Positions 3,355-17,562 of a DNA stretch of 64,000 bases are shown here, one piece after another. The translations under genes and the position numbers were made by a program. The stretch is taken from assembly GCF_019799905.1 (NCBI RefSeq), contig NZ_JABGCI010000003.1, positions 1 through 64,000 on the forward strand, in the 5' to 3' direction. The first letter of the stretch is position 1, and every line of letters begins with the position of its first letter. The DNA comes from Trujillonella endophytica (GTDB lineage Bacteria; Actinomycetota; Actinomycetes; Mycobacteriales; Geodermatophilaceae). Below the pieces are notes generated by a model. It saw nothing but the letters and a program-made list of their open reading frames with translations. It had not been told where the DNA came from and searched no databases.

Positions 3355-4554
3355 CTAGGCGGCCGCCTTCTCCAGGACGTGCACGCCGCAGGCGGAGCCG
3401 AGGCCGATGACGTGCGCCAGCCCGACCCGGGCGCCGGCGATCTGCCGGTCGCCGGCCTCGCCGCGCAGGTGGGTGGCGACCTCCCAGACGTTGGCGATCC
3501 CGGTGGCCGACACCGGGTGCCCCTTGGACTGCAGGCCGCCGGAGACGTTCACCGGTGTGCTGCCGTCGCGCCACGTGGCCCCGGAGCGGAAGAAGTCGGC
3601 GGCACCGCCGGGCTCGCACAGGCCGAGGTTGTCGTAGTGGACCAGCTCGGCGGTGGCGAAGCAGTCGTGCAGCTCGACGAGATCGAGGTCGGCGGGGCCG
3701 ACGCCGGCCTGCTCGTACGCGGTGACGGCGGCCTGCCGGGTGAGCGTGTTGATGTCCGGGAGGACCTGGCAGGCCTCCTGGTACGGGTCGCTGGTCAGCA
3801 CCGAGGCGCTGATCTTCACCGCGCGCCGCTGCTGCTCCAGGGACAGGGTGCGCAGCTTCGTCTCGCTCACGAGCACCGCGGCGGCCGCGCCGTCGCAGTT
3901 GGCCGAGCACATCGGCCGCGTGTTCGGGTAGGCGATCATGACGTCGTTCATGATCTCGTCGAGGCTGAGCCGCTTCTGGTAGGCGGCCTTGGGGTTGAGC
4001 GTCGAGTGCGCGTGGTTCTTCTCGGAGATCCGGGCGAACAGCTCGAAGTCCACTCCCCCGTGCTCGTAGCCGTACTGCATGCCGATCTGCGCGAAGACGC
4101 CCGGCATGGTCTCGGTGCCGATCCGGCCGTCGAGCGGCGCGACCGCGCCGTAACGGCCGTCCCGGACCCAGTGACCGCCCTCGGCCCTGCGCGCGTTGCC
4201 GGTCAGCAGGCCGGCGCCGGAGAGCTTCTCGACGCCGACGGCCATCCCCATGTCGACCTCGCCGGACTTGATCGCCATGACGACGACCCGCAGCGCCGTC
4301 GCCCCGGTCGCGCACGCGTTGGCGACGTTGTAGACGGGGATGCCGGTCTGCCCGATCTGCTTCTGGAGCAGCTGGCCGAAGCCGTTGCCGCCGATGAGGT
4401 TGCCGGCGGCCAGGACGCCGATGTCGCCGATCCCCACGCCCGCGTCGCGCAGGGCGCCGATCGCCGCCTCGGACCCCAGGTCGAGCGAGTCCTTGTCCCG
4501 GTGCTTGCCGAACCTCGTCATGTCGATGCCGAGGATCCACACGTTCTCCGCCAT
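3355..4554 (-). CDS. thiolase family protein (acetyl-CoA acetyltransferase type)
   Basis: A 399-residue thiolase-fold enzyme. The nucleophile Cys81 is in VANACATG, His346 is in SKGHPVSATG, and the second catalytic cysteine Cys389 is in GLGSACG. All three catalytic residues expected of a working thiolase are therefore present. Such enzymes cleave or form 3-ketoacyl-CoA using CoA. It starts nine bases after the stop of the DUF35 gene (4564-5034), the usual partner of SCP-x-like thiolases. Together they probably act on a branched or cyclic acyl-CoA. Contrast the thiolase-like protein at 10033-11211, which lacks the nucleophilic cysteine. Confidence 0.85.
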   Translation of the reverse strand: MAENVWILGIDMTRFGKHRDKDSLDLGSEAAIGALRDAGVGIGDIGVLAAGNLIGGNGFGQLLQKQIGQTGIPVYNVANACATGATALRVVVMAIKSGEVDMGMAVGVEKLSGAGLLTGNARRAEGGHWVRDGRYGAVAPLDGRIGTETMPGVFAQIGMQYGYEHGGVDFELFARISEKNHAHSTLNPKAAYQKRLSLDEIMNDVMIAYPNTRPMCSANCDGAAAAVLVSETKLRTLSLEQQRRAVKISASVLTSDPYQEACQVLPDINTLTRQAAVTAYEQAGVGPADLDLVELHDCFATAELVHYDNLGLCEPGGAADFFRSGATWRDGSTPVNVSGGLQSKGHPVSATGIANVWEVATHLRGEAGDRQIAGARVGLAHVIGLGSACGVHVLEKAAA

Positions 4555-4563
4555 GACGCTCTC

Positions 4564-5034
4564 CTAGCTGTCGCGGTCGTCGTCCGGGCGGCCCTCTCGC
4601 AGGGGCCCGCCGCGAGCGTGCGAGTGGTGGGGGGCGAGGGGGTCGTCCACCGGCTCGAAGCCGTAGCCGACGGCCTCGACGCCGTCCGCGTCCGTGCCCA
4701 CCGGCACCGTGGTCAGCCGCACCCGCATGCCGAGGGTGACGTGCTCGGGGTCCGGCGGGGTGTGGACGACGTTGCCCCGCACGCTGGTGCCGCCGCAGTC
4801 GACGACGCCCGCGACGAACGGCACCTCGACCCCCTCGGCGGCGAACGAGACGATGGTGAACGTCGTCAGCACGCCCTCGGTCGGCACGTCGACCGGACGG
4901 AACTCCAGCGCGCCGCAGCCCGCGCACGCGCTGCGGCGGTCGAAGAACCGGGCCCCGCAGCTCGTGCACTCGGCGGCGACGAGGTGCGGCTCGTCGCCCA
5001 GCACCAGGTAGTCGACCAGCGGCACGCGCTGCAT
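4564..5034 (-). CDS. Zn-ribbon/OB-fold protein (DUF35 family), thiolase partner
   Basis: A 156-residue two-domain protein. The N-terminal rubredoxin-like zinc ribbon has two CxxC knuckles (CTSCG and CAGCG, about residues 24-42) and the rest is an OB-fold ([15 protein letters not shown]). DUF35 proteins associate with thiolase-like enzymes, where the OB-fold is thought to bind the CoA moiety. The start at 5034 is preceded by GGAGGAGCCCC. The tail ([17 protein letters not shown]) is charged and probably disordered. It is first in a two-gene leftward operon with the thiolase and lies divergent from furA. Confidence 0.85.
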
Positions 5035-5118: not shown

Positions 5119-5155
5119 TTGACTCCAGACTGAGATCCGGGCAGACTCCGGGACG
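5119..5155 (+). promoter_or_regulatory. candidate furA promoter (leaderless transcript)
   Basis: TTGACT at 5119-5124 is followed after 17 bases by CAGACT at 5142-5147, which would place transcription initiation at or within a base or two of the furA GTG at 5155. No ribosome site precedes the GTG. As I recall, mycobacterial furA is also transcribed from a TTGACT promoter as a leaderless message, so the arrangement appears conserved. Confidence 0.5.
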
Positions 5156-5631
5156 TGCCACCGACGACATCGGACCTGGAGCACATGCTCCGCGGTGCCG
5201 GACTCCGGGTGACCCGCCCCCGGATGGCAGTGCTCTCCGCGGTGTTCGAGCACCCGCACGCCGACACCGACTCGATCCTCGGGGCGACCCGCGCGCGGCT
5301 GGACTCCGTCTCGCACCAGGCCGTCTACGACGTCCTGCACGCCCTGTCCACCGCCGGCCTCCTGCGTCGCCTCCAGCCCCCGGGCTCGGTCGCGCGGTAC
5401 GAGGCCCGCGTCGGCGACAACCACCACCACGTCGTCTGCCGGTCGTGCGGGGTGATCGTCGACGTCGACTGCGCCGTCGGCTACGCCCCCTGCCTGACCG
5501 CCGCCGACGGCGCCGGCTTCGAGATCGACGAGGCCGAGGTCATCTACTGGGGACGCTGCCCGGCCTGCGCGGCCGGTCAGTCTCCCGCCGCCTCACCCCA
5601 CCGCACCACACCAGAGGAAGGGACGTCGTGA
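5155..5631 (+). CDS. furA: Fur family transcriptional regulator FurA
   Basis: A 158-residue Fur-type regulator. The winged helix covers roughly residues 1-85 ([31 protein letters not shown]). The dimerisation domain carries the metal motif [10 protein letters not shown] and a second CPAC pair near the C-terminus. It is immediately upstream of katG and overlaps it by four bases (GTGA), the classic actinobacterial furA-katG operon in which FurA represses its own promoter and responds to peroxide. The last ~14 residues ([16 protein letters not shown]) are translated over the katG ribosome site. Confidence 0.9.
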
Positions 5632-7850
5632 GCAAGGAAGCCGACAAGCTCGAGACCGAGAGCACCAGCGAGAGCGAGAACCCGGCGATCTCCTCGCCGG
5701 AGCAGGTCACCAACCGTCGGCCCCAGAGCAACCGGGACTGGTGGCCCAACCAGGTCGACCTCGGGGTGCTGAACAAGCCGTCGCGGGACTCCGACCCGCT
5801 GGGCGCGGACTTCGACTACAAGGCCGCGGTCGCGACGCTCGACGTCGAGGCGGTCAAGCGCGACATCGTCCAGGTGATGCGCACCTCCCAGGACTGGTGG
5901 CCGGCGGACTGGGGCCACTACGGCCCCCTGTTCATCCGCATGTCGTGGCACGCGGCCGGCACCTACCGCATCGCCGACGGCCGGGGCGGCGGCGGCCAGG
6001 GCGCGCAGCGCTTCGCGCCGCTGAACAGCTGGCCGGACAACGCCAACCTCGACAAGGCCCGCCGCCTGCTGCTGCCGGTCAAGCAGAAGTACGGCCGCAA
6101 GCTCTCCTGGGCCGACCTGCTGGTGCTCGCCGGCAACGTCGCCCACGACGACATGGGCCTGAAGACCTTCGGGTTCGCGTTCGGCCGCGAGGACACCTGG
6201 CAGCCCGAGGAGGTCTTCTGGGGCCCCGAGGACACCTGGCTCGGTGACGAGCGCTACGCCGACAAGGAGGCGCTCGACCTCGACGAGGGCCACCTCGCCG
6301 CGGTCACCATGGGCCTGATCTACGTCAACCCCGAGGGCCCCAAGGGCAGCGGGGACCCGGTCGCCTCCGCCCACGACATCCGGGTGACCTTCAGCCGCAT
6401 GGGCATGACCGACGAGGAGACCGTCGCCCTCATCGCCGGCGGCCACACCTTCGGCAAGACCCACGGCGCCGGCAACCCCGAGCTGATCGGTCCCGAGCCG
6501 GAGGGCTGCCCGGTCCACGGCAACGGCCTGGGCTGGATCAGCCAGCACGGCACCGGCAAGGGCGCCGACACCATCACCAGCGGCCTCGAGGGCGCCTGGA
6601 CGCCGACGCCCACCACCTGGGACAACTCCTACTTCGACACCCTGCTCAAGTTCGAGTGGGAGCTCGTCCAGAGCCCCGCCGGTGCCAAGCAGTGGCAGCC
6701 GAAGAACCCCGAGGCCCAGGAGCTCGTGCCCGACGCGCACATCGAGGGCAAGAAGAACCCGCCGATGATGTCGACCGCCGACATGGCGCTCGCCGTCGAC
6801 CCCGGGTTCCGCGAGATCTCGGAGCGCTTCCACAACGACCCCGAGTACTTCGCCGACCAGTACGCGCGGGCGTGGTTCAAGCTGCTGCACCGCGACATGG
6901 GCCCGAAGACCCGCTACGTCGGCCCCGACGTGCCGGCCGAGGACCTCGTCTGGCAGGACCCGCTGCCCGCCGTCGACCACGAGCTCGTGGGCGAGGCGGA
7001 GATCGCCGACCTCAAGCAGCGGCTGCTGGGGGCCGGCCTGACCGTGTCGCAGCTGGTGCACACGGCGTGGTCCGCCGCCGCGTCCTACCGCGGCACGGAC
7101 AAGCGCGGCGGCGCCAACGGCGCCCGGATCCGCCTCGAGCCGCAGATCAACTGGGCGGCCAACGAGGGCGTCCGGGACGTGCTGCCGGTGCTCGAGCGGG
7201 TCAAGGGCGAGTTCGAGCAGCAGACCGGCAAGAAGGTCTCGCTGGCCGACCTCATCGTGCTCGGCGGCACCGCGGCGGTCGAGAAGGCCGCGGCGGACGC
7301 CGGCGTGACGGTGACCGTGCCGTTCCACCCGGGCCGGACCGACGCCTCGCAGGAGCAGACGGACGTCGACAACTTCCGCTGGCTGGAGACGCGGGCCGAC
7401 GGCTTCCGCAACTGGATCGCCCCGGGCAGCAAGCTCGAGCCGGAGACGCTCCTGGTCGACAAGGCCTACATGCTGGAGCTGACCCCCAAGGAGATGACCC
7501 TGCTCGTCGGTGGCCTGCGCGTCCTTGGCGCCAACACCGGCGGCGTGCAGCACGGCGTCTTCACCGACCGCCCCGGCGTGCTGTCGCAGGACTTCTTCCG
7601 CAACCTGCTCGACCTGGGCATCCAGTGGCGCACCGCGGTCGACGCCGAGGACGTCTACGAGGGGCTGGACGCCGACGGCAACGTCGTCCGCACGGCCACC
7701 GCGTGCGACCTCGTGTTCAACTCGAACTCCATCCTCCGCGGGATCGTCGAGGTCTACTCGGCCGACGACGCGAAGGAGAAGTTCGTGCAGGACTTCGCCG
7801 CGGCGTGGGTCAAGGTCATGGAGCTGGACCGCTTCGACCTGCACAACTGA
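5628..7850 (+). CDS. katG: catalase-peroxidase KatG
   Basis: A 740-residue bifunctional haem enzyme removing hydrogen peroxide by catalase and peroxidase activity. The distal triad Arg104-Trp107-His108 is in [10 protein letters not shown]. The Trp-Tyr-Met crosslink partners are Trp107, Tyr232 (LIYVNPEG) and Met258 (FSRMGM). The proximal histidine His273 is in [10 protein letters not shown]. Length and both halves of the duplicated fold are complete. The start GTG at 5628 overlaps the furA stop and follows GAGGAAGG. Transcription ends in two strong hairpins. Confidence 0.95.
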
Positions 7851-7956: not shown

Positions 7957-8883
7957 TCAGGCGGCCGGAGCCCCGCCGGCCCGGACCCGCGGCGCCACGT
8001 CCGCGAACAGTGCCCGGAGCTGGTCGGCGTCCCGCCGGCACGGCAGCAGCACCAGGTGCTCGGCGCCGGCGTCGACGTACTCCCGCAGCCGGCCCGCCAC
8101 CCGCGCCGCCGTCCCGACCGCGGCGACGTGGTCGAGCAGCGGGTCGAAGTCCTGCCGGTAGGTGCCGCCGAGGAAGGCCGCCGCGTCCGCCCGTGCCCGC
8201 GAGGCGTCCGCGTCCACGCAGACCGGCACGTAGGCCATCCACCGGAAGCCGTCCAGCTCGCGGCCCGCCGTCGTCGCCACCCGGCGGATCTCGGCGACCG
8301 ACTCCGCGTACCGGCGCGGGGAGTACATGTAGGGCAGCCAGCCGTCGCCCAGCAGCGCTGCCCGGCGCATGGCCGGGGCCTGGCGGCCACCGACGACGAC
8401 CGGCGGCCCGCCGGGCTGCACCGGCGGCGGGGTGAGGCGCACGTCCGTCATCGGGTAGGCCGGCCCGTCGGCGGTCACCGGCTCGCCGGACCACAGCCGC
8501 CGCAGGAGCGGGATGGCCTCGTCGGTGCGCCGCCCGCGCTCGCCGAGCGGCACCTGGACGGCCGAGAACTCCTGCGGGTACTCACCCCCTACTCCGACGC
8601 CGAGCACCACGCGCCCGCCGGCGACCCGGTCCAGGTCGGCGACCTGCTTGGCCACCAGCGCCGGCGGGTAGAGCGGCAGCAGCAGGACGGCGGACCCGAT
8701 GGTCACCCGCTCGGTCTGCTCCGCCAGTCGGTGCAGCCAGGCCAGCGGCTCCCAGCCCGGGTTCCGCGAGGCGATGTGCCCGCCCACCCACAGGGAGTCC
8801 ACGCCCAGCCGCTCGGTCAGCGCCACGAGCGCCGGGTCCTGTGCCGCGACCACGCCGACGAGCGGTCCGGACCCGCCGGTCAC
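7957..8883 (-). CDS. LLM class (F420-dependent type) oxidoreductase
   Basis: A 308-residue bacterial-luciferase-like TIM barrel: LGVDSLWVGGH near the start, TERVTIGSAVLLLPLYPP, then LGVGVGGEYPQEFSA and PPVVVGGRQAPAMRRAA. The GVG(V)GGEYP segment resembles TIGR03619-like F420-dependent enzymes, but FMN use cannot be excluded. It would transfer hydride to or from an unsaturated or alcohol substrate. The ATG at 8883 overlaps the GntR stop by four bases, making it the last gene of the leftward operon 12439-7957 with CoA-transferase, thiolase-like protein and DUF35. Confidence 0.8.
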   Translation of the reverse strand: MTGGSGPLVGVVAAQDPALVALTERLGVDSLWVGGHIASRNPGWEPLAWLHRLAEQTERVTIGSAVLLLPLYPPALVAKQVADLDRVAGGRVVLGVGVGGEYPQEFSAVQVPLGERGRRTDEAIPLLRRLWSGEPVTADGPAYPMTDVRLTPPPVQPGGPPVVVGGRQAPAMRRAALLGDGWLPYMYSPRRYAESVAEIRRVATTAGRELDGFRWMAYVPVCVDADASRARADAAAFLGGTYRQDFDPLLDHVAAVGTAARVAGRLREYVDAGAEHLVLLPCRRDADQLRALFADVAPRVRAGGAPAA

Positions 8884-9608
8884 CCCGGCGGCCGGTCGCC
8901 CGCTCGCCCGGACAGCAGGTCGTGCTGCGCGAGCACCTCGACGGCGGCCTGTCCCCCGCGGCGGAAGTTCTCGACGAGCAGCCGCTCGGCCGTGGCGCCG
9001 TCACCGGCCTCCAGCGCCGCGAGCACCCGCTTCGAGGTCTCCTTCTGCCGCGCCATGCCGTCCCGGAACTCCAGGATCGCCGTGCTCGGGAGGAGGCCGG
9101 CCGGGATGCTCAGCAACCGCACGACCGAGGCGAGCCGGGCCGACCGGGCCGCGGTCACCAGGGCGGCGAAGAACATGCTGTTCCCCCGCCAGAACCCCTC
9201 GGGCTCCTCGGCGGCCTGGATGGCCTCGGCGCCGGCCCGGATCCCGCTCAGGTCGCTCCCGCGCTCGGCCACCCGGGAGGCGACGAAGCCGTAGACGCGC
9301 CCCAGCAACTCGTAGTGGTCGCGCACGGAGTCCTCGTCCAGCCCGTTCACGTAGGCGCCGCGGTGGGACTCCATGCGCACCCAGCCCTCGCGGTCGAGGG
9401 CGATCACGGCCTCGCGCACCGGGATGCGGCTGACCCCCAGCTGGGCCGCCAGCTCCTCCTGGCGGAGCCGGTCGCCGGTCTTCAGCGTGCCGTCGAAGAT
9501 CATCCGCCGGATGGCGTTGGCGACCTGCTGGGACGTGGTCAGCCGGGCGGTCCCGGCCTCGAGCCCGGCGTCCCAGCCGGTGAAGGCGCCGCTCTCCGCG
9601 TCGCTCAC
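8880..9608 (-). CDS. GntR family transcriptional regulator, FCD type
   Basis: A 242-residue regulator with an N-terminal winged helix (QQVANAIRRMIFDGTLKTGD, LAAQLGVSRIPVREAV, about residues 28-75) and an all-helical FCD-like C-terminal domain. The histidines that usually bind metal in FCD domains look replaced: NSMFFAALVTAA where NxxFHxxL is normal, and AERLLVENF where a terminal His is expected. The ligand may therefore be bound without metal. It overlaps neighbours by four bases on both sides, so it is produced with the operon it probably controls. Confidence 0.85.
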   Translation of the reverse strand: MSDAESGAFTGWDAGLEAGTARLTTSQQVANAIRRMIFDGTLKTGDRLRQEELAAQLGVSRIPVREAVIALDREGWVRMESHRGAYVNGLDEDSVRDHYELLGRVYGFVASRVAERGSDLSGIRAGAEAIQAAEEPEGFWRGNSMFFAALVTAARSARLASVVRLLSIPAGLLPSTAILEFRDGMARQKETSKRVLAALEAGDGATAERLLVENFRRGGQAAVEVLAQHDLLSGRAGDRPPG

Positions 9609-10036
9609 GAGGGGGTCCGCTCTCCGGCCGGGAGGTGCCGGGGACGGAAGCGCGGGATCACGACGCCGGGCCGGAGCTCGGTGAAGACCGCCTCGACCGG
9701 CAGGCCGACGGCGACGTCCTCCGGGGCGCAGTCGACGAGGTTCGTGTGGAAGAACGGTCCCTCGTCCAGCTGGATCACCGCGACAATGTACGGGACCGGC
9801 AGCCCGAGCTCCGGGTCGTAGGTCCGGCGGAACACCGTCCAGGTGTGCACCTCGCCCCGCCCGGACGCCGGCACCCAGCGCATCGCGTCGCCCCCGTGCT
9901 CGGTGCAGCTGCTCGCCGGCCAGTAGTCGCGGGAACAACGCCCGCACCGGTGCACCAGGAACTCCGAGCGCAGGCAGGCGTCCCAGAACGGCGCGTCGAG
10001 GTCGTCGGCGACGACGTCACGGGGGCCGGGGATCAC
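9605..10036 (-). CDS. Zn-ribbon/OB-fold protein (DUF35 family), partner of the Cys-less thiolase-like protein
   Basis: A 143-residue DUF35 protein: zinc ribbon with CGRC near residues 32-35 and a second, incomplete knuckle (only one Cys in ASSCTEHGG), then an OB-fold (HTWTVFRRTYDP, PYIVAVIQLDEG). It overlaps the thiolase-like gene upstream and the GntR gene downstream by four bases each, so the products are made together. In steroid side-chain degradation the equivalent pair, Ltp2 with a DUF35 domain, forms an acyl-CoA retro-aldolase. The neighbour here lacks a thiolase cysteine, so the same role is likely. Confidence 0.85.
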   Translation of the reverse strand: MIPGPRDVVADDLDAPFWDACLRSEFLVHRCGRCSRDYWPASSCTEHGGDAMRWVPASGRGEVHTWTVFRRTYDPELGLPVPYIVAVIQLDEGPFFHTNLVDCAPEDVAVGLPVEAVFTELRPGVVIPRFRPRHLPAGERTPS

Positions 10037-11211
10037 CGCGCGGCCCCGAGCACCATGGTGGCCTGCGACCAGGTGTTCTGGACCCCGCCGTTGCCCCCGT
10101 GGCCGCTGACCAGGGCGACCTCGGCTCCGGCGACCTGGGTGGCTCCGCCTGCGCCGCGCATCTGCAGCAGCCCCTCCACCACCGCGGTGAAGCCGGTGGC
10201 GTAGTACCCCGACAGCTGGCCGCCGCCGGTGTTGGTCGGGATCCGGCCGCCCAGCCCCGTCTCCCCCGCGGCGTGCATCGGGCCGCCCTCCCCCGGCGCG
10301 CAGAAGCCGTAGGCCTCCAGCTGCATGATCGGCGAGATGGTGAACGGGTCGTAGAGGGCGGCCACGTCGACGTCGGCCACCCCGATCCCCGCCTGCCCGA
10401 AGGCGGTCTCCTTCGCGCTGGCGATGTCGTCGTGCAGGTCGAAGGCCTCGCCCGACCACCAGTTGCGGATGTTGTGCCCGGTGCCGAGGCCCAGCACCGG
10501 GACGAAGGCGCCGGGGAGGTCCCGCGCCCGGTCGGCCGTGGTGACCAGCAGGGCGACTCCGCCGTCGGTGTCGCGGCAGCAGTCCAGCAGCCGGAAGGGG
10601 TCGACGACGGGCGGGGACGCCTGGTGCTCGGCGAGGGTGATCGGCCGGCCGTGGCCGAGGGTGCCCGGGCGCAGGGCGGCGTGCGCCCGCTGCGCGACGG
10701 CCACCGCACCGAGGTGCTCGCTGGTGGTGCCGTACCGGTGCATGTGCCGCCGGGCGTGCAGGGCGTGCGTGGCCGCGGCACCGATCAGCCCGTACATCGA
10801 GGGGTAGCCGTAGCGGAAGGCCCCGTAGCCGCGCACCCCGCCGGCGCCGCTGCGGGCGGCGCTGGACGGGGCCGCGCCGTAGACGCACGCCACGGTGCGC
10901 GCCTGCCCGGTCAGGATCGCCCCGACGGCGTTGAGCACGGCCAGGATCGCGGTGGCGCCGCCGGCCTGCATCGTCCAGGCGAACCGCGGGCGCAGGCCGA
11001 GGTAGCGGATGTCGTCGAACATCTGCGCCGAGGTGCCGATGTACCCGTCGACGTCGTCCCGGGTCAGGCCGGCGTCGGCCAGGGCGGCCTCGACCGCGCG
11101 CCGCTGCAGCTCGCGCGGCGCCACCCCCAGGCCCCGCCCCTGCTCGGTGACGCCCAGGCCGACGACGCCGAACGCGCCGGAGATGGCGGCGGGCACCTCA
11201 GGCGACGACAC
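10033..11211 (-). CDS. thiolase-fold protein without nucleophilic Cys, Ltp2-like retro-aldolase candidate
   Basis: A 392-residue thiolase superfamily member. Where thiolases have NxxC(A/S)TG it reads AWTMQAGGATAI (about residues 78-89), so the acylated cysteine is missing. The C-terminal GHP motif is also absent; instead there are LYDPFT (Tyr287) and QLSGYYATG (Tyr336/337). In Ltp2 the catalytic tyrosines, as I recall, are Tyr294 and Tyr344, 50 residues apart; Tyr287 and Tyr337 here have the same separation. With the co-encoded DUF35 protein it probably cleaves a beta-hydroxyacyl-CoA by retro-aldol chemistry. It overlaps the CoA-transferase gene by 14 bases. Confidence 0.75.
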   Translation of the reverse strand: MSSPEVPAAISGAFGVVGLGVTEQGRGLGVAPRELQRRAVEAALADAGLTRDDVDGYIGTSAQMFDDIRYLGLRPRFAWTMQAGGATAILAVLNAVGAILTGQARTVACVYGAAPSSAARSGAGGVRGYGAFRYGYPSMYGLIGAAATHALHARRHMHRYGTTSEHLGAVAVAQRAHAALRPGTLGHGRPITLAEHQASPPVVDPFRLLDCCRDTDGGVALLVTTADRARDLPGAFVPVLGLGTGHNIRNWWSGEAFDLHDDIASAKETAFGQAGIGVADVDVAALYDPFTISPIMQLEAYGFCAPGEGGPMHAAGETGLGGRIPTNTGGGQLSGYYATGFTAVVEGLLQMRGAGGATQVAGAEVALVSGHGGNGGVQNTWSQATMVLGAAR

Positions 11212-12439
11212 CGGCGCCCCGGAGCTCGGCGATGCGGGCGTCGTCGTAGCCGGCGTCGCGGAGAACCGCGTCCGTGTGCTGGCCGAGACCGGGCGCGGGG
11301 ACGCGCGGACCCGAGGGGGTGTCGCTGAAGTCGACCGGGGTGTTGACCACCACCGTGCTGCCGCCGTCGGGCCCGGGGACGTCGACGAGCCCGCCCGCGG
11401 CGACCAGCTGCGCGTCGGCCAGCACGTCCTCGACGGTGTGCACGGGTTCGGCCCACACGTCGTGCTCGGCGAAGACGGCCAGCCACTCGTCGCGGGGCCG
11501 GCCGGCGAAGATGGCGTCGAGCTCGGCGACGAGCACCTCGGCGTTGGCCTGCCGCGCCTCGACGGTGGCGAAGCGCTCGTCCGCCAGCCAGTCCGGCCGC
11601 CCCACCGCCCGGGCCAGCGGCGGCCAGTGCCGCTCGCGCTCGATGCCGATCATCCAGACCCAGCGGTCGTCGGCGCACCGGTAGTTGTTGGTCGTCGGGC
11701 TGGTCATCCGCTCGCGGCGGGCGGTGGCCATCGTCGTCCCGTACTGCAGGGCGATGCTCAGGTCGGAGGCCAGCGTGTACGTCCCCCAGCGGTAGAGCGA
11801 ACCGCTGACCAGCTGTCCCCGGCCGGTGCGCTCCCGGGCGAGCAGCGCCGCGGCGACACCGCCGGCGAGGGCGGCCGCGGCCGTGCGGTCGCCCATCGCC
11901 CCGCGTTGGAACGGCGGCGTGCTGCCGGGCACCGTCAGCGACGCGGCGATGCCCGAGCGGGCCCAGAACGCGCCCGTGTCGTACCCGGGCGCATCGGCGT
12001 GCGGGCCGCGCAGCCCGTAGCCGGTCATGAGGGCGTAGACGAGCCGGGGGTGCCGGGCCAGCACCGAGTCGGCGTCCAGGCCCAGCCGCTCCAGAGCGGG
12101 CAACCGCATGTTGCTGACCAGCACGTCGGCCGAGGAGATCAGCTCCTCCAGGACCTCCAGGCCCGCGGCGGACTTCAGGTCCAGCGCGATCGAGCGCTTG
12201 CCGCGGTTGCTCATGTCGAACGTCGGGTTGGCCGAGACCCCCGGACCACCCAGGCCCATGACCCCGGCCAGGTGCCGCTGCGGGTCGCCGGCCAGCGGCT
12301 CGACCTTGACCACGTCGGCCCCCCAGTCCGCGAGGACGACGGAGACCGCCGGCCCGGCGACCCACATGGCGACTTCGACGACCGTGAGGCCCTCCAGCGG
12401 ACCGGGCCCCTCCGGCCGCGGCTGGGGCACGGCGGTCAT
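11198..12439 (-). CDS. CaiB/BaiF family (class III) CoA-transferase
   Basis: A 413-residue class III CoA-transferase. It begins LEGLTVVEVAMWVAGPAVSV, followed by LADWGADVVKVEPLAGDPQR, the usual N-terminal Rossmann region. Members move CoA between carboxylic acids through an aspartyl-CoA intermediate. It would activate the acid handled by the downstream thiolase-like/DUF35 pair. I chose the ATG at 12439, preceded by GGAGTGCG; an upstream reading to 12571 would cross the divergent promoter. It is the first gene of the operon running down to 7957 and is divergent from an aldehyde dehydrogenase, which could supply its acid substrate. Confidence 0.85.
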   Translation of the reverse strand: MTAVPQPRPEGPGPLEGLTVVEVAMWVAGPAVSVVLADWGADVVKVEPLAGDPQRHLAGVMGLGGPGVSANPTFDMSNRGKRSIALDLKSAAGLEVLEELISSADVLVSNMRLPALERLGLDADSVLARHPRLVYALMTGYGLRGPHADAPGYDTGAFWARSGIAASLTVPGSTPPFQRGAMGDRTAAAALAGGVAAALLARERTGRGQLVSGSLYRWGTYTLASDLSIALQYGTTMATARRERMTSPTTNNYRCADDRWVWMIGIERERHWPPLARAVGRPDWLADERFATVEARQANAEVLVAELDAIFAGRPRDEWLAVFAEHDVWAEPVHTVEDVLADAQLVAAGGLVDVPGPDGGSTVVVNTPVDFSDTPSGPRVPAPGLGQHTDAVLRDAGYDDARIAELRGAGVVA

Positions 12440-12520
12440 CGCACTCCGCCCGGCACGCCGGCCGTCGTCCCGACGCGGACCTGATCGCTCACCGATCGCC
12501 TCCCACCCCTGGTCACCGTT

Positions 12521-12540
12521 TTGGATCCAATATACATTCA
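12521..12540. promoter_or_regulatory. AT-rich divergent promoter with palindrome TTGGATCCAA
   Basis: Between the CoA-transferase and aldehyde dehydrogenase starts lies a 10-base perfect palindrome TTGGATCCAA (12521-12530) followed by TATACATTCA, an AT-rich island in very GC-rich surroundings. It probably contains one or both divergent promoters and may bind the GntR protein of the operon. Confidence 0.45.
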
Positions 12541-12588
12541 GCCGCGGTGGTGATCCATCCCACAACGTCATGGAAGGGGACCAGCGAG

Positions 12589-14061
12589 GTGCTGAACACC
12601 GGCTACGTCGACGGGCGGGCCACCGGGTCCGGCAGGACGTTCGAGGTCTCCGACCCGGCCACGCTGGAGGTGGTCGCGGAGGTCCGGAGCACCACCCCGG
12701 GCGAGGTGGAGGAGGCGATCCTCGCCGCGCGGCGTGCGTTCGACACCGGTCCCTGGCCGCGCATGTCGGCCGCGGAACGCCAGGCCGTGCTGCGGGAGTT
12801 CGCCGACCACCTGGAGAAGCGCCGGGCCGAGCTGGTGGAGGTGGTGATCGCCGAGACGGGCTGCCCCCGCGTCGTCACCGAGTACGGGCAGGTCGGCCTC
12901 CCGCTGGCCCAGGCGCGCGACTTCCCCGCCCTGTTCGCCTCCCTGCCGGAGTGGGAGCACAACGAGCTGCCGCTGGCCGAGCACCTCCAGCCGGGCGGCA
13001 CCTCGGTGCGCCTGTCGATCCGCCGGTACGAGCCGGTGGGCGTGGTCGCGGCGATCGCGGCGTCGAACTTCCCGCTCGTCACGAGCGTCGTGAAGGTGCT
13101 GCCCGCCCTCTCGACCGGCTGCACCGTGGTCCTGCGGCCGAACCCGCTCGCTCCCCTGGCGGTCCTCGCCCTGGGGGAGGCGGCGGAGGCGGCCGGCCTG
13201 CCGGCGGGCGTGCTCAACGTGGTGGTCGAGGAGGGCAACGCGGGCGCCGTCGCCATGACGAGCCACCCCGCTGTCGACATGGTGACCTTCACCGGATCCA
13301 CCGCGGTCGGCACCGCGGTCGCCGGGCAGGCCGCGCCGACGCTCAAGCGGCTCGTCCTGGAGCTGGGCGGCAAGAGCGCGCAGCTGTACCTCCCGGACGC
13401 GCTGGCGGAGGGGCCGGGGCGCGCCGTCCGGGGCGCCCTGACGATGCTCGGCACCCACGCCGGCCAGGCCTGCGTCGCGCAGAGCCGGATGCTCGTGCCC
13501 CGCGCCTCGTACGACTCGGTGCTCGACGCCCTCGGCGCCGCCACCGCCCACCTGGCGATCGGGGACCCGCGGGATCCCGCGACCCGCGTCGGCCCGCTGA
13601 TCAGCGAGGCGCAGCGCGACCGCTGTGCCCGCCTGGTCGCCGCCTCGGTGGCGGCCGGTGGACGGGTCGTCGCCGGCGGCGGCGTCCCGGCCGCCCCCGG
13701 GCGTGGCTGGTACTTCGAGCCGACCGTGATCGCCGTCGAGAGCAACGCCGACCCCGCCGCGCAGCAGGAGGTCTTCGGACCGGTGCTCACCGTCCAGGCC
13801 TACGACTCGCTCGACGAGGCCGTCGCGATCGCCAACGACACCGACTACGGCCTCTCCGGCGCCGTGTACACCGACGACCTCGCCGCCGGGCTGGCCGTCG
13901 CCGAGCGGATCCGCGCCGGGAACGTGCACGTCAACACCGGCTGCGCCACGGCCCACACGCCGAGCGGCGGCATGCGACGCAGCGGTCTCGGCCGCGAGCG
14001 CGGCGTGCTCGGCCTCCGCAGCTTCCAGGAGGTCAAGCACGTCGCCGTCGGCTCGGCCTGA
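12589..14061 (+). CDS. aldehyde dehydrogenase family protein
   Basis: About 490 residues, a complete NAD(P)-dependent aldehyde dehydrogenase. The catalytic Cys295 is in HAGQACVAQ, general base Glu258 in LELGGKS, and Asn160 in AASNFPL. The cofactor-binding lysine normally in KPS is Arg183 (VVLRPNPLAPL), an unusual substitution. The GTG at 12589 has GGAAGGGG nine bases upstream; a reading from 12547 adds 14 doubtful residues. It is divergent from the CoA-transferase operon and 64 bases ahead of an amidohydrolase gene. It probably oxidises an aldehyde intermediate to the acid that then receives CoA. Confidence 0.85.
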   Translation: MLNTGYVDGRATGSGRTFEVSDPATLEVVAEVRSTTPGEVEEAILAARRAFDTGPWPRMSAAERQAVLREFADHLEKRRAELVEVVIAETGCPRVVTEYGQVGLPLAQARDFPALFASLPEWEHNELPLAEHLQPGGTSVRLSIRRYEPVGVVAAIAASNFPLVTSVVKVLPALSTGCTVVLRPNPLAPLAVLALGEAAEAAGLPAGVLNVVVEEGNAGAVAMTSHPAVDMVTFTGSTAVGTAVAGQAAPTLKRLVLELGGKSAQLYLPDALAEGPGRAVRGALTMLGTHAGQACVAQSRMLVPRASYDSVLDALGAATAHLAIGDPRDPATRVGPLISEAQRDRCARLVAASVAAGGRVVAGGGVPAAPGRGWYFEPTVIAVESNADPAAQQEVFGPVLTVQAYDSLDEAVAIANDTDYGLSGAVYTDDLAAGLAVAERIRAGNVHVNTGCATAHTPSGGMRRSGLGRERGVLGLRSFQEVKHVAVGSA

Positions 14062-14125: not shown

Positions 14126-15346
14126 ATGTCCCAGGACACGTCCACCACTCCCGACCTCGACTGGTTGATCTCGGTCGACGACCACATCCTCGAGCCGCCG
14201 AACGTCTGGCAGGACCGCATCCCCGCCAAGTACCGGGACGACGCACCGCGGATGGTCGCGGGCGACGACGGCGAGGTCTGGGTGTACGACGGCAAGCGGA
14301 TCCCGACCTCGGGTCTGTCGGCGGCGGCCGGCCGGAAGAAGGAGGAGTTCAGCCCCAAGCCGCTCAGCTACTCCGACATGCGGCCGGGCTGCTACGACTC
14401 GGTCGCGCGCCTGGCGGACATGGACAAGGCCGGGATCCTGGCCTCGATGTGCTTCCCGTCGTTCCCGCGCTTCTGCGGCCAGATCTTCCTCGAGGCCTCC
14501 GACAAGGAGCTCGCGCTGCTGTGCGTCCAGGCCTACAACGACTGGATCCTCGACGAGTGGTGCGGCTCGGCGCCGGGCCGCTACATCCCGATGACCATCA
14601 TCCCGCTGTGGGACCCGCGGGCGGCGGCGAAGGAGATCGAGCGCTGCGCGGCCAAGGGCTCGCGGGCCATCGCGTTCTCCGAGAACCCCGCGCCGCTGGG
14701 GCTGCCGACCATCCACGACAAGGACGGCTACTGGGACCCGGTCATGGAGACCGCCCACGACGCCGACATCGTCGTCTGCATGCACGCCGGGTCGTCCTCG
14801 ACGATGCCGAAGATCTCCCCCAACTCCCCCATCCTCGCCAACATGGCCTGGGGACCCATCCGGGCCGGCGGGGCGATGCTGGAGTGGCTCTTCAGCTCCT
14901 ACCTGCAGCGCCTCCCCAACCTCCGGATCGCGCTGTCCGAGGGCGGCGTGGGCTGGATCCCCTACTTCCTGGAGCGCGCCGAGCAGGTGCTGGACAAGCA
15001 GCGGCACTGGGCGACGAAGATGGGGTCGGTCGACCTGTACGGCGTGCACGGCGAGGCCGCCCGGACCGCCGACCTGGACACCCTCGACCTGCGGAAGACC
15101 TTCAGCGAGCACGTCTACGGGTGCTTCATCGACGACATCCACGCCATGAACAGCGTGAGCGAGATCGGTGAGGACAACATCATGATCGAGACCGACTACC
15201 CGCACACGGACTCGACGTGGCCGGACTCGATCACGCTGGCCCAGAAGCGGGTCGCCCACCTCTCCCCCGCGGTCCAGTACAAGCTGCTGCGGGGCAACGC
15301 CGAGCGCGTCTTCCGCTTCACGCCCGCGGAGCCGCCGGCCCGCTGA
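14126..15346 (+). CDS. amidohydrolase family protein (ACMSD-like metal-dependent hydrolase)
   Basis: A 406-residue amidohydrolase_2 TIM barrel. Metal or catalytic positions seen are SVDDHILEPP (in place of the HxH of typical members), VVCMHAGSSS, LSEGGVGWIP and IETDYPHTDSTWP. Proteins of this group are often annotated as TIM-barrel metal-dependent hydrolases or decarboxylases and are frequent in actinobacterial aromatic and steroid-like catabolic loci. The ATG at 14126 follows GAGGAGG. It is the second gene of the rightward unit with the aldehyde dehydrogenase and is followed by a strong terminator. Hydrolysis or decarboxylation of a ring-derived acid is plausible but unproven. Confidence 0.8.
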   Translation: MSQDTSTTPDLDWLISVDDHILEPPNVWQDRIPAKYRDDAPRMVAGDDGEVWVYDGKRIPTSGLSAAAGRKKEEFSPKPLSYSDMRPGCYDSVARLADMDKAGILASMCFPSFPRFCGQIFLEASDKELALLCVQAYNDWILDEWCGSAPGRYIPMTIIPLWDPRAAAKEIERCAAKGSRAIAFSENPAPLGLPTIHDKDGYWDPVMETAHDADIVVCMHAGSSSTMPKISPNSPILANMAWGPIRAGGAMLEWLFSSYLQRLPNLRIALSEGGVGWIPYFLERAEQVLDKQRHWATKMGSVDLYGVHGEAARTADLDTLDLRKTFSEHVYGCFIDDIHAMNSVSEIGEDNIMIETDYPHTDSTWPDSITLAQKRVAHLSPAVQYKLLRGNAERVFRFTPAEPPAR

Positions 15347-15412: not shown

Positions 15413-16264
15413 TCAGACGGTGGACAGCAGCGCCCCGGCGTCGACGGCGATGTTCTGCCCGGTGATGTACCGCCCGTCGTCGGAGGCGAGCAGCAGCACG
15501 ACCGCCGTGATGTCGGCGGGCTCCACGTAGCCCACCGGGAGCCGGTGCATCCGCGGGAAGGTGACCTCGGCGTCCTCCCGCGTCGGCTCCGCCAGGTCCG
15601 GCCGGAAGGCCCGGTACATGCCGTCGTTGTGCAGCAGCGTCGTGTTGCAGTTGCTCGGGTGGACGCCGTTCACGCGGATGCGGTGCGGCCCCAGCTCGTA
15701 GGCGAGGTCGCGCACCAGGGGCACGAGCGCCTTCTTGCCGACCGCGTACGCCGACCCGCCCATGCCCAGCGCGCTGACGCCCGAGCCCGACGACGCACGC
15801 AGGCCGGCCGTTGAGCCGGTGACGATGATCGAGCCGCCGTCGGTCAGGTGCGGCAGCGCCGCCCCGATCGTGTTGACGACTCCGCCGAAGACGACGCCGA
15901 GGGTGTCGGTGTACGTCTTCGGCGGCAGGTCCCTGCCGACGGGCGCGATCCCGGCGTTGGCCACGACGACGTCCAGGCGGCCCAGCTCCCCCACCGCCCC
16001 GGCGACCTCGGCCTCCAAGGCCGCGGCCTCCCGCACGTCGATCTGGAGCGCCACCGCCCGCCGGTCGTGCTGCTCGACCAGCCGCACGGTCTCGGCCAGG
16101 TCCTCCGGGGTGGCCATGGGGTAGGTGACGGTCTCGATCTGGCGGCACACGTCGACGACGACGACGTCCGCGCCGGCAGCCGCGAAGGCCACCGCGTGGC
16201 TGCGCCCCTGCCCGCGGGCCGCTCCGGTGACGAGGGCGACCCTGCCCTCCAGGCGCGCGCTCAC
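15413..16264 (-). CDS. mycofactocin-coupled SDR family oxidoreductase
   Basis: A 283-residue SDR with TGAARGQG at 13-20 and Tyr173/Lys177 in YAVGKK. After the second beta strand it has an extra segment, DVCRQIETVTYPMATPEDL, at about residues 38-56. This insertion marks the mycofactocin-associated subfamily, whose members hold NAD tightly and pass electrons to the peptide-derived redox carrier mycofactocin. Its GTG at 16264 overlaps the P450 stop by four bases. The pair probably hydroxylates a substrate and then oxidises the new alcohol. No mycofactocin biosynthesis genes are in the window. Confidence 0.88.
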   Translation of the reverse strand: MSARLEGRVALVTGAARGQGRSHAVAFAAAGADVVVVDVCRQIETVTYPMATPEDLAETVRLVEQHDRRAVALQIDVREAAALEAEVAGAVGELGRLDVVVANAGIAPVGRDLPPKTYTDTLGVVFGGVVNTIGAALPHLTDGGSIIVTGSTAGLRASSGSGVSALGMGGSAYAVGKKALVPLVRDLAYELGPHRIRVNGVHPSNCNTTLLHNDGMYRAFRPDLAEPTREDAEVTFPRMHRLPVGYVEPADITAVVLLLASDDGRYITGQNIAVDAGALLSTV

Positions 16265-17562
16265 AGCTGGACCGGGGTGTAGACGACGGGCAGGTGGGTG
16301 GGCATGCGGAAGTGCAGTCCGGTCATCTCCACGCCGGTGGCCTCCGGGTCCAGGCGCAGGTCGGGGAAGAGGTCGAGCGTGCGGTTGAGCATGGTCTCCA
16401 GCTCGGCGCGGGCGAGGTAGATGCCCAGGCAGCGATGCAGGCCGAACCCGAAGGTCAGGTGCCGCGCCGAGTTGACCCGGTGGACGTCGAACCGCTCCGG
16501 GTCGGGGAACTGCCGGGGGTCGTGGTTCGCGGCCCCCACGTTCACCGTGACGGGACAGCCGGACGGGACGGGCTCCCCGGCGAGCTCGGCCTCGCGCAGC
16601 GTGGTCCGGCCCCAGTTGGCGATCGGCTGCTCCAGTCGCAGGGACTCCTCGACCGCCCGCGGCACCAGGGAGCGGTCGGCGCGCACCGCGTCCAGCTGGT
16701 CGAGGTCGGTCAGCAGCGCGTACATCAGGTTGCCGTAGGCGCGGTACGTGGTGCCGGCGCCGGCGATGACGAGCAGCCGGACGAAGCGGGCGATCTCCTC
16801 GTCCGACAGCGGCCGGTCGTCGAGCACCTCGCCGTCCACCTCGTCGGCGTCGACCCGCGCCCGCACGAGCACGGTCAGCAGGTCGTCGGCGGCCGCGTCC
16901 CCGGCGGAGTCGGCGGCCCGCCGCTGGGCGACGAGCGGCATGACGTAGTCCTTGAGCTCGTCGCCCGCGACGATCCGCTGCCTCGGGTCGAGGGTGCTCG
17001 ACGTCATCCGCAGCGCCCAGTCGAAGAACCGGTCCCGGTCCTCGACCGGCAGGCCGAGGGCCGCGGCGATGGTGTGCACCGGGACCTGCGAGCCGATCTC
17101 GTGGTAGATGTCGCACCGGCCCAGCGGGGCGATCCGGCGCATGTGCTCGTCGACCACCGGCTTCACGTAGCGCGGCATCCAGCGGACCATCTGCCCCCGG
17201 GAGAAGGCCGGCTGGAGCAGCGCGCGCATCCGCCGGTGCTCCGGGTCGTCCATGCCGATCATGGTCGGGCCGATGATGGCGTTGAGGCTCCCCTCGTACC
17301 AGGTCGAGGAGTAGGTCGCGCTGTCGCGCAGCACCTCGGTGCAGGCGTCGAACCCGTAGACGGTGTACTGCGGCCCGCCGCCGTCCGGTCCCATGGCGAC
17401 CATCCCCGGGAAGTGGTCCACGACCGATCCGGCGTGGACGTCGCCCTCGGCCAGCAGCCGGCCGAACACGGGATAGGGATCGGACACCACACCCGCGCCC
17501 ATGGACTTGTTCCGTTCCGCGTCGAGCTCGGTGGCACCGACGCGGACCTCCTCTTCGAGCAT
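16261..17562 (-). CDS. cytochrome P450
   Basis: A 433-residue soluble bacterial P450. The haem ligand Cys378 is in FGFGLHRCLG and the ExxR pair is Glu306/Arg309 (EESLRLEQP). The I-helix reads IAGAGTTYR at residues 266-274: the usual acidic residue before the threonine is Gly270, so proton delivery may differ from standard P450s. The start ATG at 17562 is preceded by GGGAGGAACGC. It is translationally coupled to the mycofactocin-type SDR. No ferredoxin lies beside it. The substrate is unknown; context suggests a hydrophobic compound entering the CoA pathway next door. Confidence 0.9.
   Translation of the reverse strand: MLEEEVRVGATELDAERNKSMGAGVVSDPYPVFGRLLAEGDVHAGSVVDHFPGMVAMGPDGGGPQYTVYGFDACTEVLRDSATYSSTWYEGSLNAIIGPTMIGMDDPEHRRMRALLQPAFSRGQMVRWMPRYVKPVVDEHMRRIAPLGRCDIYHEIGSQVPVHTIAAALGLPVEDRDRFFDWALRMTSSTLDPRQRIVAGDELKDYVMPLVAQRRAADSAGDAAADDLLTVLVRARVDADEVDGEVLDDRPLSDEEIARFVRLLVIAGAGTTYRAYGNLMYALLTDLDQLDAVRADRSLVPRAVEESLRLEQPIANWGRTTLREAELAGEPVPSGCPVTVNVGAANHDPRQFPDPERFDVHRVNSARHLTFGFGLHRCLGIYLARAELETMLNRTLDLFPDLRLDPEATGVEMTGLHFRMPTHLPVVYTPVQL

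Follow-up and report, generated by a model that had tools for sequence, protein, structure and literature searches.

The stretch of DNA analysed here (hereafter the window: 64,000 nucleotides, positions 1 to 64,000 of contig NZ_JABGCI010000003.1 from Trujillonella endophytica, forming part of contig C255 in an actinobacterial genome of 5.35 Mb) carries on its minus strand a run of five genes, overlapping head to tail, for a CaiB/BaiF coenzyme A (CoA)-transferase, a thiolase-fold protein without the nucleophilic Cys, a DUF35 protein, a GntR regulator with an FCD domain and a luciferase-like monooxygenase (LLM) class oxidoreductase. Divergent from this run lie genes for an aldehyde dehydrogenase (ALDH) and a PF04909 protein, followed on the minus strand by a short-chain dehydrogenase/reductase (SDR) and a cytochrome P450. 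Our subject is the thiolase-fold protein (10033-11211, minus strand; 392 amino acids from a GTG start) and its DUF35 partner (9605-10036, minus strand; likewise GTG), which a first-pass annotation had proposed to be an acyl-CoA retro-aldolase. Both reading frames lie where that annotation had put them, and the translational coupling it described takes the form of a GTGA in which the DUF35 start overlaps the thiolase-fold stop by 4 nt. Sequence comparison suggests, with good confidence, that the pair is a Tyr/Tyr CoA-thioester retro-aldolase related to Ltp2-DUF35.

The reported absence of both classical catalytic residues was borne out by alignment with a Cys-bearing thiolase of the window (3355-4554), in which Gly85 of the candidate sits on the column of the nucleophilic Cys and GGQLSGYYATGF stands at the site of GHPVSATG, the GHP His being absent. 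The correspondence of Tyr287 and Tyr337 with the catalytic tyrosines of Ltp2, previously argued from spacing alone, holds by homology: in the HMMER alignment to Ltp2 of Thermomonospora curvata (TcLtp2; PDB 6ok1) Y287, in a YDPF motif, pairs with Y294 and Y337 with Y344, and alignment to this solved structure would place both in the active-site pocket. In Ltp2, Tyr294 is the base and Tyr344 the acid (PMC12329534). Across 39 aligned family members Y287 is invariant, and position 337 is occupied by Tyr (27), His (8) or Arg (4). All five orthologues keep Y287, P289 and Y337, with the adjacent Y336 replaced by Phe in two of them and H371 by Ser in one.

Searches with phmmer gave TcLtp2 (2e-57), an uncharacterised Sphaerobacter 'thiolase' (4u4e) and CtSal of Comamonas testosteroni (9myr) as the best solved relatives. 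A single-chain AlphaFold2 (AF2) model (predicted local distance difference test score, pLDDT, 88.6) has 6ok1 as its best structural match (VIA Z 52.0, root-mean-square deviation 2.1 over 368 residues), followed by 9myr (48.6) and 4u4e (48.4), effectively tied, with Cys thiolases such as 1m3k at about 34. In a tree of 61 rows, built by a quick search with Shimodaira-Hasegawa-like approximate likelihood ratio test (SH-aLRT) support only, with several long-branched rows and with CtSal, 4u4e and TcLtp2 represented by their aligned parts, the candidate and an orthologue from genome G093 form a well supported pair that lies outside the TcLtp2 clade and far from the Cys thiolases. By this placement the candidate is a clade of its own, separate from the Ltp2 orthologues, and does not fall with ordinary thiolases. 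The tree, the motifs (no Cys, no GHP His) and the context led us to reject both identity as an ordinary thiolase and plain orthology to Ltp2; the best match of the model, the tree and the context make retro-aldol cleavage of a substrate different from the usual one of Ltp2, as first proposed, the best-supported reading of the sequence. Orthologues are rare: outside the window's genome about 1,000 genome searches yielded two (G093 and G485), and the named loci described below added one from a metagenome-assembled genome (L184, 71%) and one from Pseudonocardia pini (L179, 51%), giving five members in the clade overall.

Two other sets of Cys-less or Ltp-like proteins were seen. Proteins at L013, L014, L015 and L062, with their relatives, form a larger Cys-less thiolase-like clade bearing YDCYTY and YYMWGM and keeping both Tyr positions, and may be a further uncharacterised group of candidate aldolases. 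Several Ltp-like genes also lie in another catabolic region of the window's genome, on contig C293 (G000; L055, L056 and L057); two of them have a PF04909 relative no more than about 0.5 kb away, and one Ltp-like protein there falls inside the Ltp2 clade.

The smaller partner belongs to the OB_ChsH2_C group of DUF35 domains (PF01796, 2e-22; 79.4 bits, cut-off 27.1), and its best phmmer matches, 9myr_B (5e-18) and 6ok1_B (5e-17), are the DUF35 domains of both aldolase complexes. Its zinc motif is CxxC-x9-CxxH (C3H) in all five orthologues, rather than a C4 zinc finger. The zinc site of CtShy, the DUF35 partner of CtSal, is likewise C3H but has its His placed differently, and because the His positions differ the two changes look independent.

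Thus the Ltp2-ChsH2 complex of T. curvata resembles the window pair in fold, DUF35 partner, absent nucleophilic Cys and the positions of the Tyr base and Tyr acid, whereas it has YDHF (His296) in place of YDPF, belongs to a separate clade and has as its partner ChsH2, a MaoC-DUF35 protein, where the window has a stand-alone C3H DUF35. CtSal-CtShy shares the fold, the DUF35 partner and the first Tyr of YDxx, but Sal has YDCY with a needed Cys304, and Gln352 for the second Tyr, where the window has Pro289 and Tyr337. In the Sal pathway the product is an aldehyde that then meets a dehydrogenase, a likeness to the ALDH of the window. A Pfam scan of the window cassette found no ChsE1E2, ChsH1 or MaoC-DUF35 ChsH2; the cassette instead has an oxygenase related to PtmU3 and DitZ, an ALDH, a CoA-transferase and a P450, in keeping with the first-pass view that this is not a known steroid operon. 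The window aldolase likely works as Ltp2-DUF35 does, as a heteromer.

The oxygenase assignment concerns the PF04909 'amidohydrolase' (14126-15346, plus strand), whose nearest relatives by phmmer are DitZ (8uyr, 9e-63) and then PtmU3 (6omp, 1e-31), with hydrolases far behind. Its candidate metal ligands D18, H20, H220, E272, D357 and H360 match the LynB7/PtmU3 set in order, and D362 corresponds to LynB7 D325; on this sequence evidence it is a probable dinuclear monooxygenase. In diterpenoid numbering C-5 lies beta to a C-18/19 carboxyl, and hydroxylation at such a position would yield a retro-aldol substrate. PtmU3 hydroxylates diterpenoid-CoA intermediates at C-5 (PMC10127204). Oxygenases form a recognised class within PF04909, a family that is functionally mixed (PMC10811679). 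PtmU3 and DitZ, which have the same metal ligands, belong to other pathways, and it is gene context that leads us to propose a tie to a retro-aldolase. Across 100 related genomes, 27 of 106 relatives of the window's PF04909 protein have an Ltp-like gene no more than 5 kb away, where uniform placement would give 1.8.

This context is conserved. A search of genome contigs with a two-member alignment (A1) gave no matches, whereas a profile search with an oxygenase alignment (A2) gave 80 named loci around close oxygenase relatives, including loci from Nocardia, Mycobacterium, Rhodococcus, Frankia, Streptomyces and Blastococcus. About 70 of these 80 actinobacterial loci keep a module of CoA-transferase, DUF35, thiolase-like protein, ALDH, PF04909 oxygenase, SDR and P450, the individual counts being 70 for the common thiolase-like protein, 66 for its DUF35, 66 for the CoA-transferase, 73 for the ALDH and 77 for the P450; frequent extras are a TetR regulator (59), an F420H2-dependent reductase (44) and a ferredoxin (25). 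Probes for acyl-CoA dehydrogenase, enoyl-CoA hydratase and MaoC found no relative within about 10 kb in 66 of 82 loci. Open reading frames resembling mammalian cell entry (MCE) transport genes, recognised by eye, adjoin the module in about ten loci, mostly mycobacterial, which hints at a hydrophobic substrate. In its common version, exemplified by Blastococcus sp. TF02A-26 (L098, L143) and Nocardia carnea (L116), the module has the same CoA-transferase, ALDH, oxygenase and P450 families, but its thiolase-like protein, equally uncharacterised, is about 30% identical to the candidate and has YDGF and no Tyr337, and its DUF35 the canonical C4-x10 motif (68 of 68 readable sister matches). The Blastococcus cassettes carry a GntR (52% identical) and an LLM oxidoreductase (74-76%) of the window type, yet a YDGF pair; the window thus appears to hold this module with its aldolase/DUF35 pair swapped for another. 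Full-text searches of open-access papers turned up no account of the cassette.

Further features of these loci were noted. A phosphotransferase of the APH/ecdysteroid-kinase-like family (L155, 2142-3209) occurs in 30 of 81 module loci, and on a Mycobacterium branderi plasmid (L192, 10887-13682) CoA-transferase, 'amidohydrolase', 'thiolase' and OB-fold genes stand side by side under generic names only. An Achromobacter insolitus plasmid (L194, 3388-8155) carries a related OB-fold/thiolase pair in a hydratase version of the arrangement, its neighbours being a CoA-transferase and two MaoC dehydratases.

Within the window, the CaiB/BaiF family III CoA-transferase (11198-12571, minus strand; CoA_transf_3, 3e-106) overlaps the aldolase start, is 73-74% identical to its counterparts in G093 and G485, and probably has its true start near 12439. 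The ALDH (12547-14061, plus strand; Aldedh, 2e-129), which is kept in the conserved module, is a candidate oxidiser of the aldehyde product. Beyond the oxygenase are the mycofactocin-coupled SDR oxidoreductase (15413-16270, minus strand; TIGR03971, 6e-99, above cut-off) and the P450 of the module (16261-17535, minus strand; Pfam p450, 1e-29), whose best named PDB relatives include the steroid oxidases CYP125 and CYP142 among many others. Downstream of the aldolase pair, the GntR regulator (8880-9608, minus strand; GntR, 1e-18), whose start overlaps the DUF35 stop, had been called FCD-less; this was mistaken, as the FCD domain (PF07729, 5e-8) is weak but significant and above the Pfam cut-off. 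The run ends with the LLM-class F420-dependent oxidoreductase (7957-8883, minus strand; TIGR03619, 3e-50, above cut-off). The first-pass description of the operon was therefore right as to the CoA-transferase, LLM and GntR genes, wrong as to the GntR domain, and overlooked the oxygenase. A perfect palindrome, TTGGATCCAA (12521-12530), is common to the divergent intergenic regions of the window, G093 and G485, the latter two of which also carry the window-type GntR, and none of the other loci retrieved has it. This makes it a candidate GntR operator; a literature search gave no direct match to a published TTGGATCCAA operator.

Elsewhere in the window, a second thiolase/DUF35 pair (3355-5010, minus strand) has its nucleophilic Cys (NACATG) and GHP motif intact and is nearest the NCBIfam PRK08256 lipid-transfer protein, below its cut-off. 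Between the two pairs (5155-7850, plus strand) lie a Fur-like regulator and then a KatG-like catalase-peroxidase, identified by eye.

We modestly favour a route in which these activities are joined as O2-dependent beta-hydroxylation of an acyl-CoA, Tyr/Tyr retro-aldol cleavage and oxidation of the resulting aldehyde. The substrate, probably a branched or alicyclic hydrophobic carboxylic acid, would receive CoA from the CaiB-type transferase, and the PtmU3/DitZ-type dinuclear oxygenase would use O2 to hydroxylate its beta-carbon, a step that we infer. In the aldolase, shaped by its DUF35 partner, Tyr287 would deprotonate the beta-hydroxyl as base and Tyr337 would serve the acyl-CoA enolate as acid, Pro289 being neither an acid nor a side-chain hydrogen-bond donor, so that Tyr337 appears to be the sole obvious acid. 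The products would be an aldehyde, which ALDH would turn into an acid, and a short acyl-CoA.

Several observations weigh against this picture. Pro289 occupies the third motif position, where Ltp2 has His and Sal its essential Cys, and because it replaces them the oxyanion hole must differ from those of both enzymes; the most divergent orthologue, moreover, has Ala for D288. Most sister modules lack the second Tyr, and the Tyr pair is thus no requirement of the module. A search around the window cassette found no Rieske or ferredoxin partner near the oxygenase. Finally, the excess of PF04909 relatives close to Ltp-like genes (27 of 106) is uncorrected for catabolic gene clustering and for shared ancestry.

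Of the alternatives, the one that survives best retains the retro-aldolase but has its beta-hydroxyacyl-CoA made by the P450, or by a dehydrogenase and hydratase encoded elsewhere, with the PF04909 protein catalysing hydrolysis, decarboxylation or hydroxylation at another site. The functional breadth of PF04909, the P450 near 77 of the 80 module loci and the Ltp-like genes that have MaoC hydratases instead (L194) lend it some weight; set against these, the PF04909 protein keeps the full dinuclear ligand set and has DitZ and PtmU3 as its nearest relatives, most loci lack dehydrogenase and hydratase relatives in the vicinity, and we regard this alternative as possible but unlikely. It is improbable that the pair is a drifted Ltp2-type aldolase of the steroid C3 side chain: although Ltp2 is the best match and has the Tyr pair in common, the candidate lies outside the TcLtp2 clade, has YDPF rather than YDHF, a stand-alone C3H DUF35 and a cassette without ChsE, ChsH1 or MaoC, and contig C293 of the window's genome encodes a separate protein (L008) that does group with TcLtp2. 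Synthesis or acyl transfer, as in other Cys-poor thiolase-fold/DUF35 complexes, is very improbable, since PhlABC-like acyltransferases, which share the fold and the DUF35 partner, fit the model far more poorly (VIA Z about 43, compared with 52), the window protein has no Cys and the context looks catabolic. That the thiolase-fold protein is a catalytically dead scaffold, as loss of the classical thiolase residues might suggest, is hardly credible when the Tyr pair is invariant while Y336 varies and Y287 is invariant across the wider family.

A broader proposal, for and against which we find the case evenly poised, is that actinobacteria carry a widespread, uncharacterised O2-dependent module for cutting side chains, in which a dinuclear amidohydrolase-fold oxygenase takes the place of acyl-CoA dehydrogenase and hydratase and feeds a thiolase-fold/DUF35 retro-aldolase of one of two types: a common YDGF type that lacks the second Tyr, and a rare YDPF type, found in the window, that has the Tyr pair and a C3H zinc site. 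To our knowledge, few thiolase-fold retro-aldolases have been studied, all of them in steroid side-chain removal. The present analysis adds to these a distinct candidate aldolase clade whose active-site motif and zinc site are altered, ties thiolase-fold aldolases, through a conserved operon, to oxygenases of the PtmU3/DitZ type, and offers a testable function for genes publicly annotated just as 'thiolase', 'OB-fold domain-containing protein' and 'amidohydrolase family protein'. If true, it would describe a route for cutting carbon chains where ordinary beta-oxidation is blocked.
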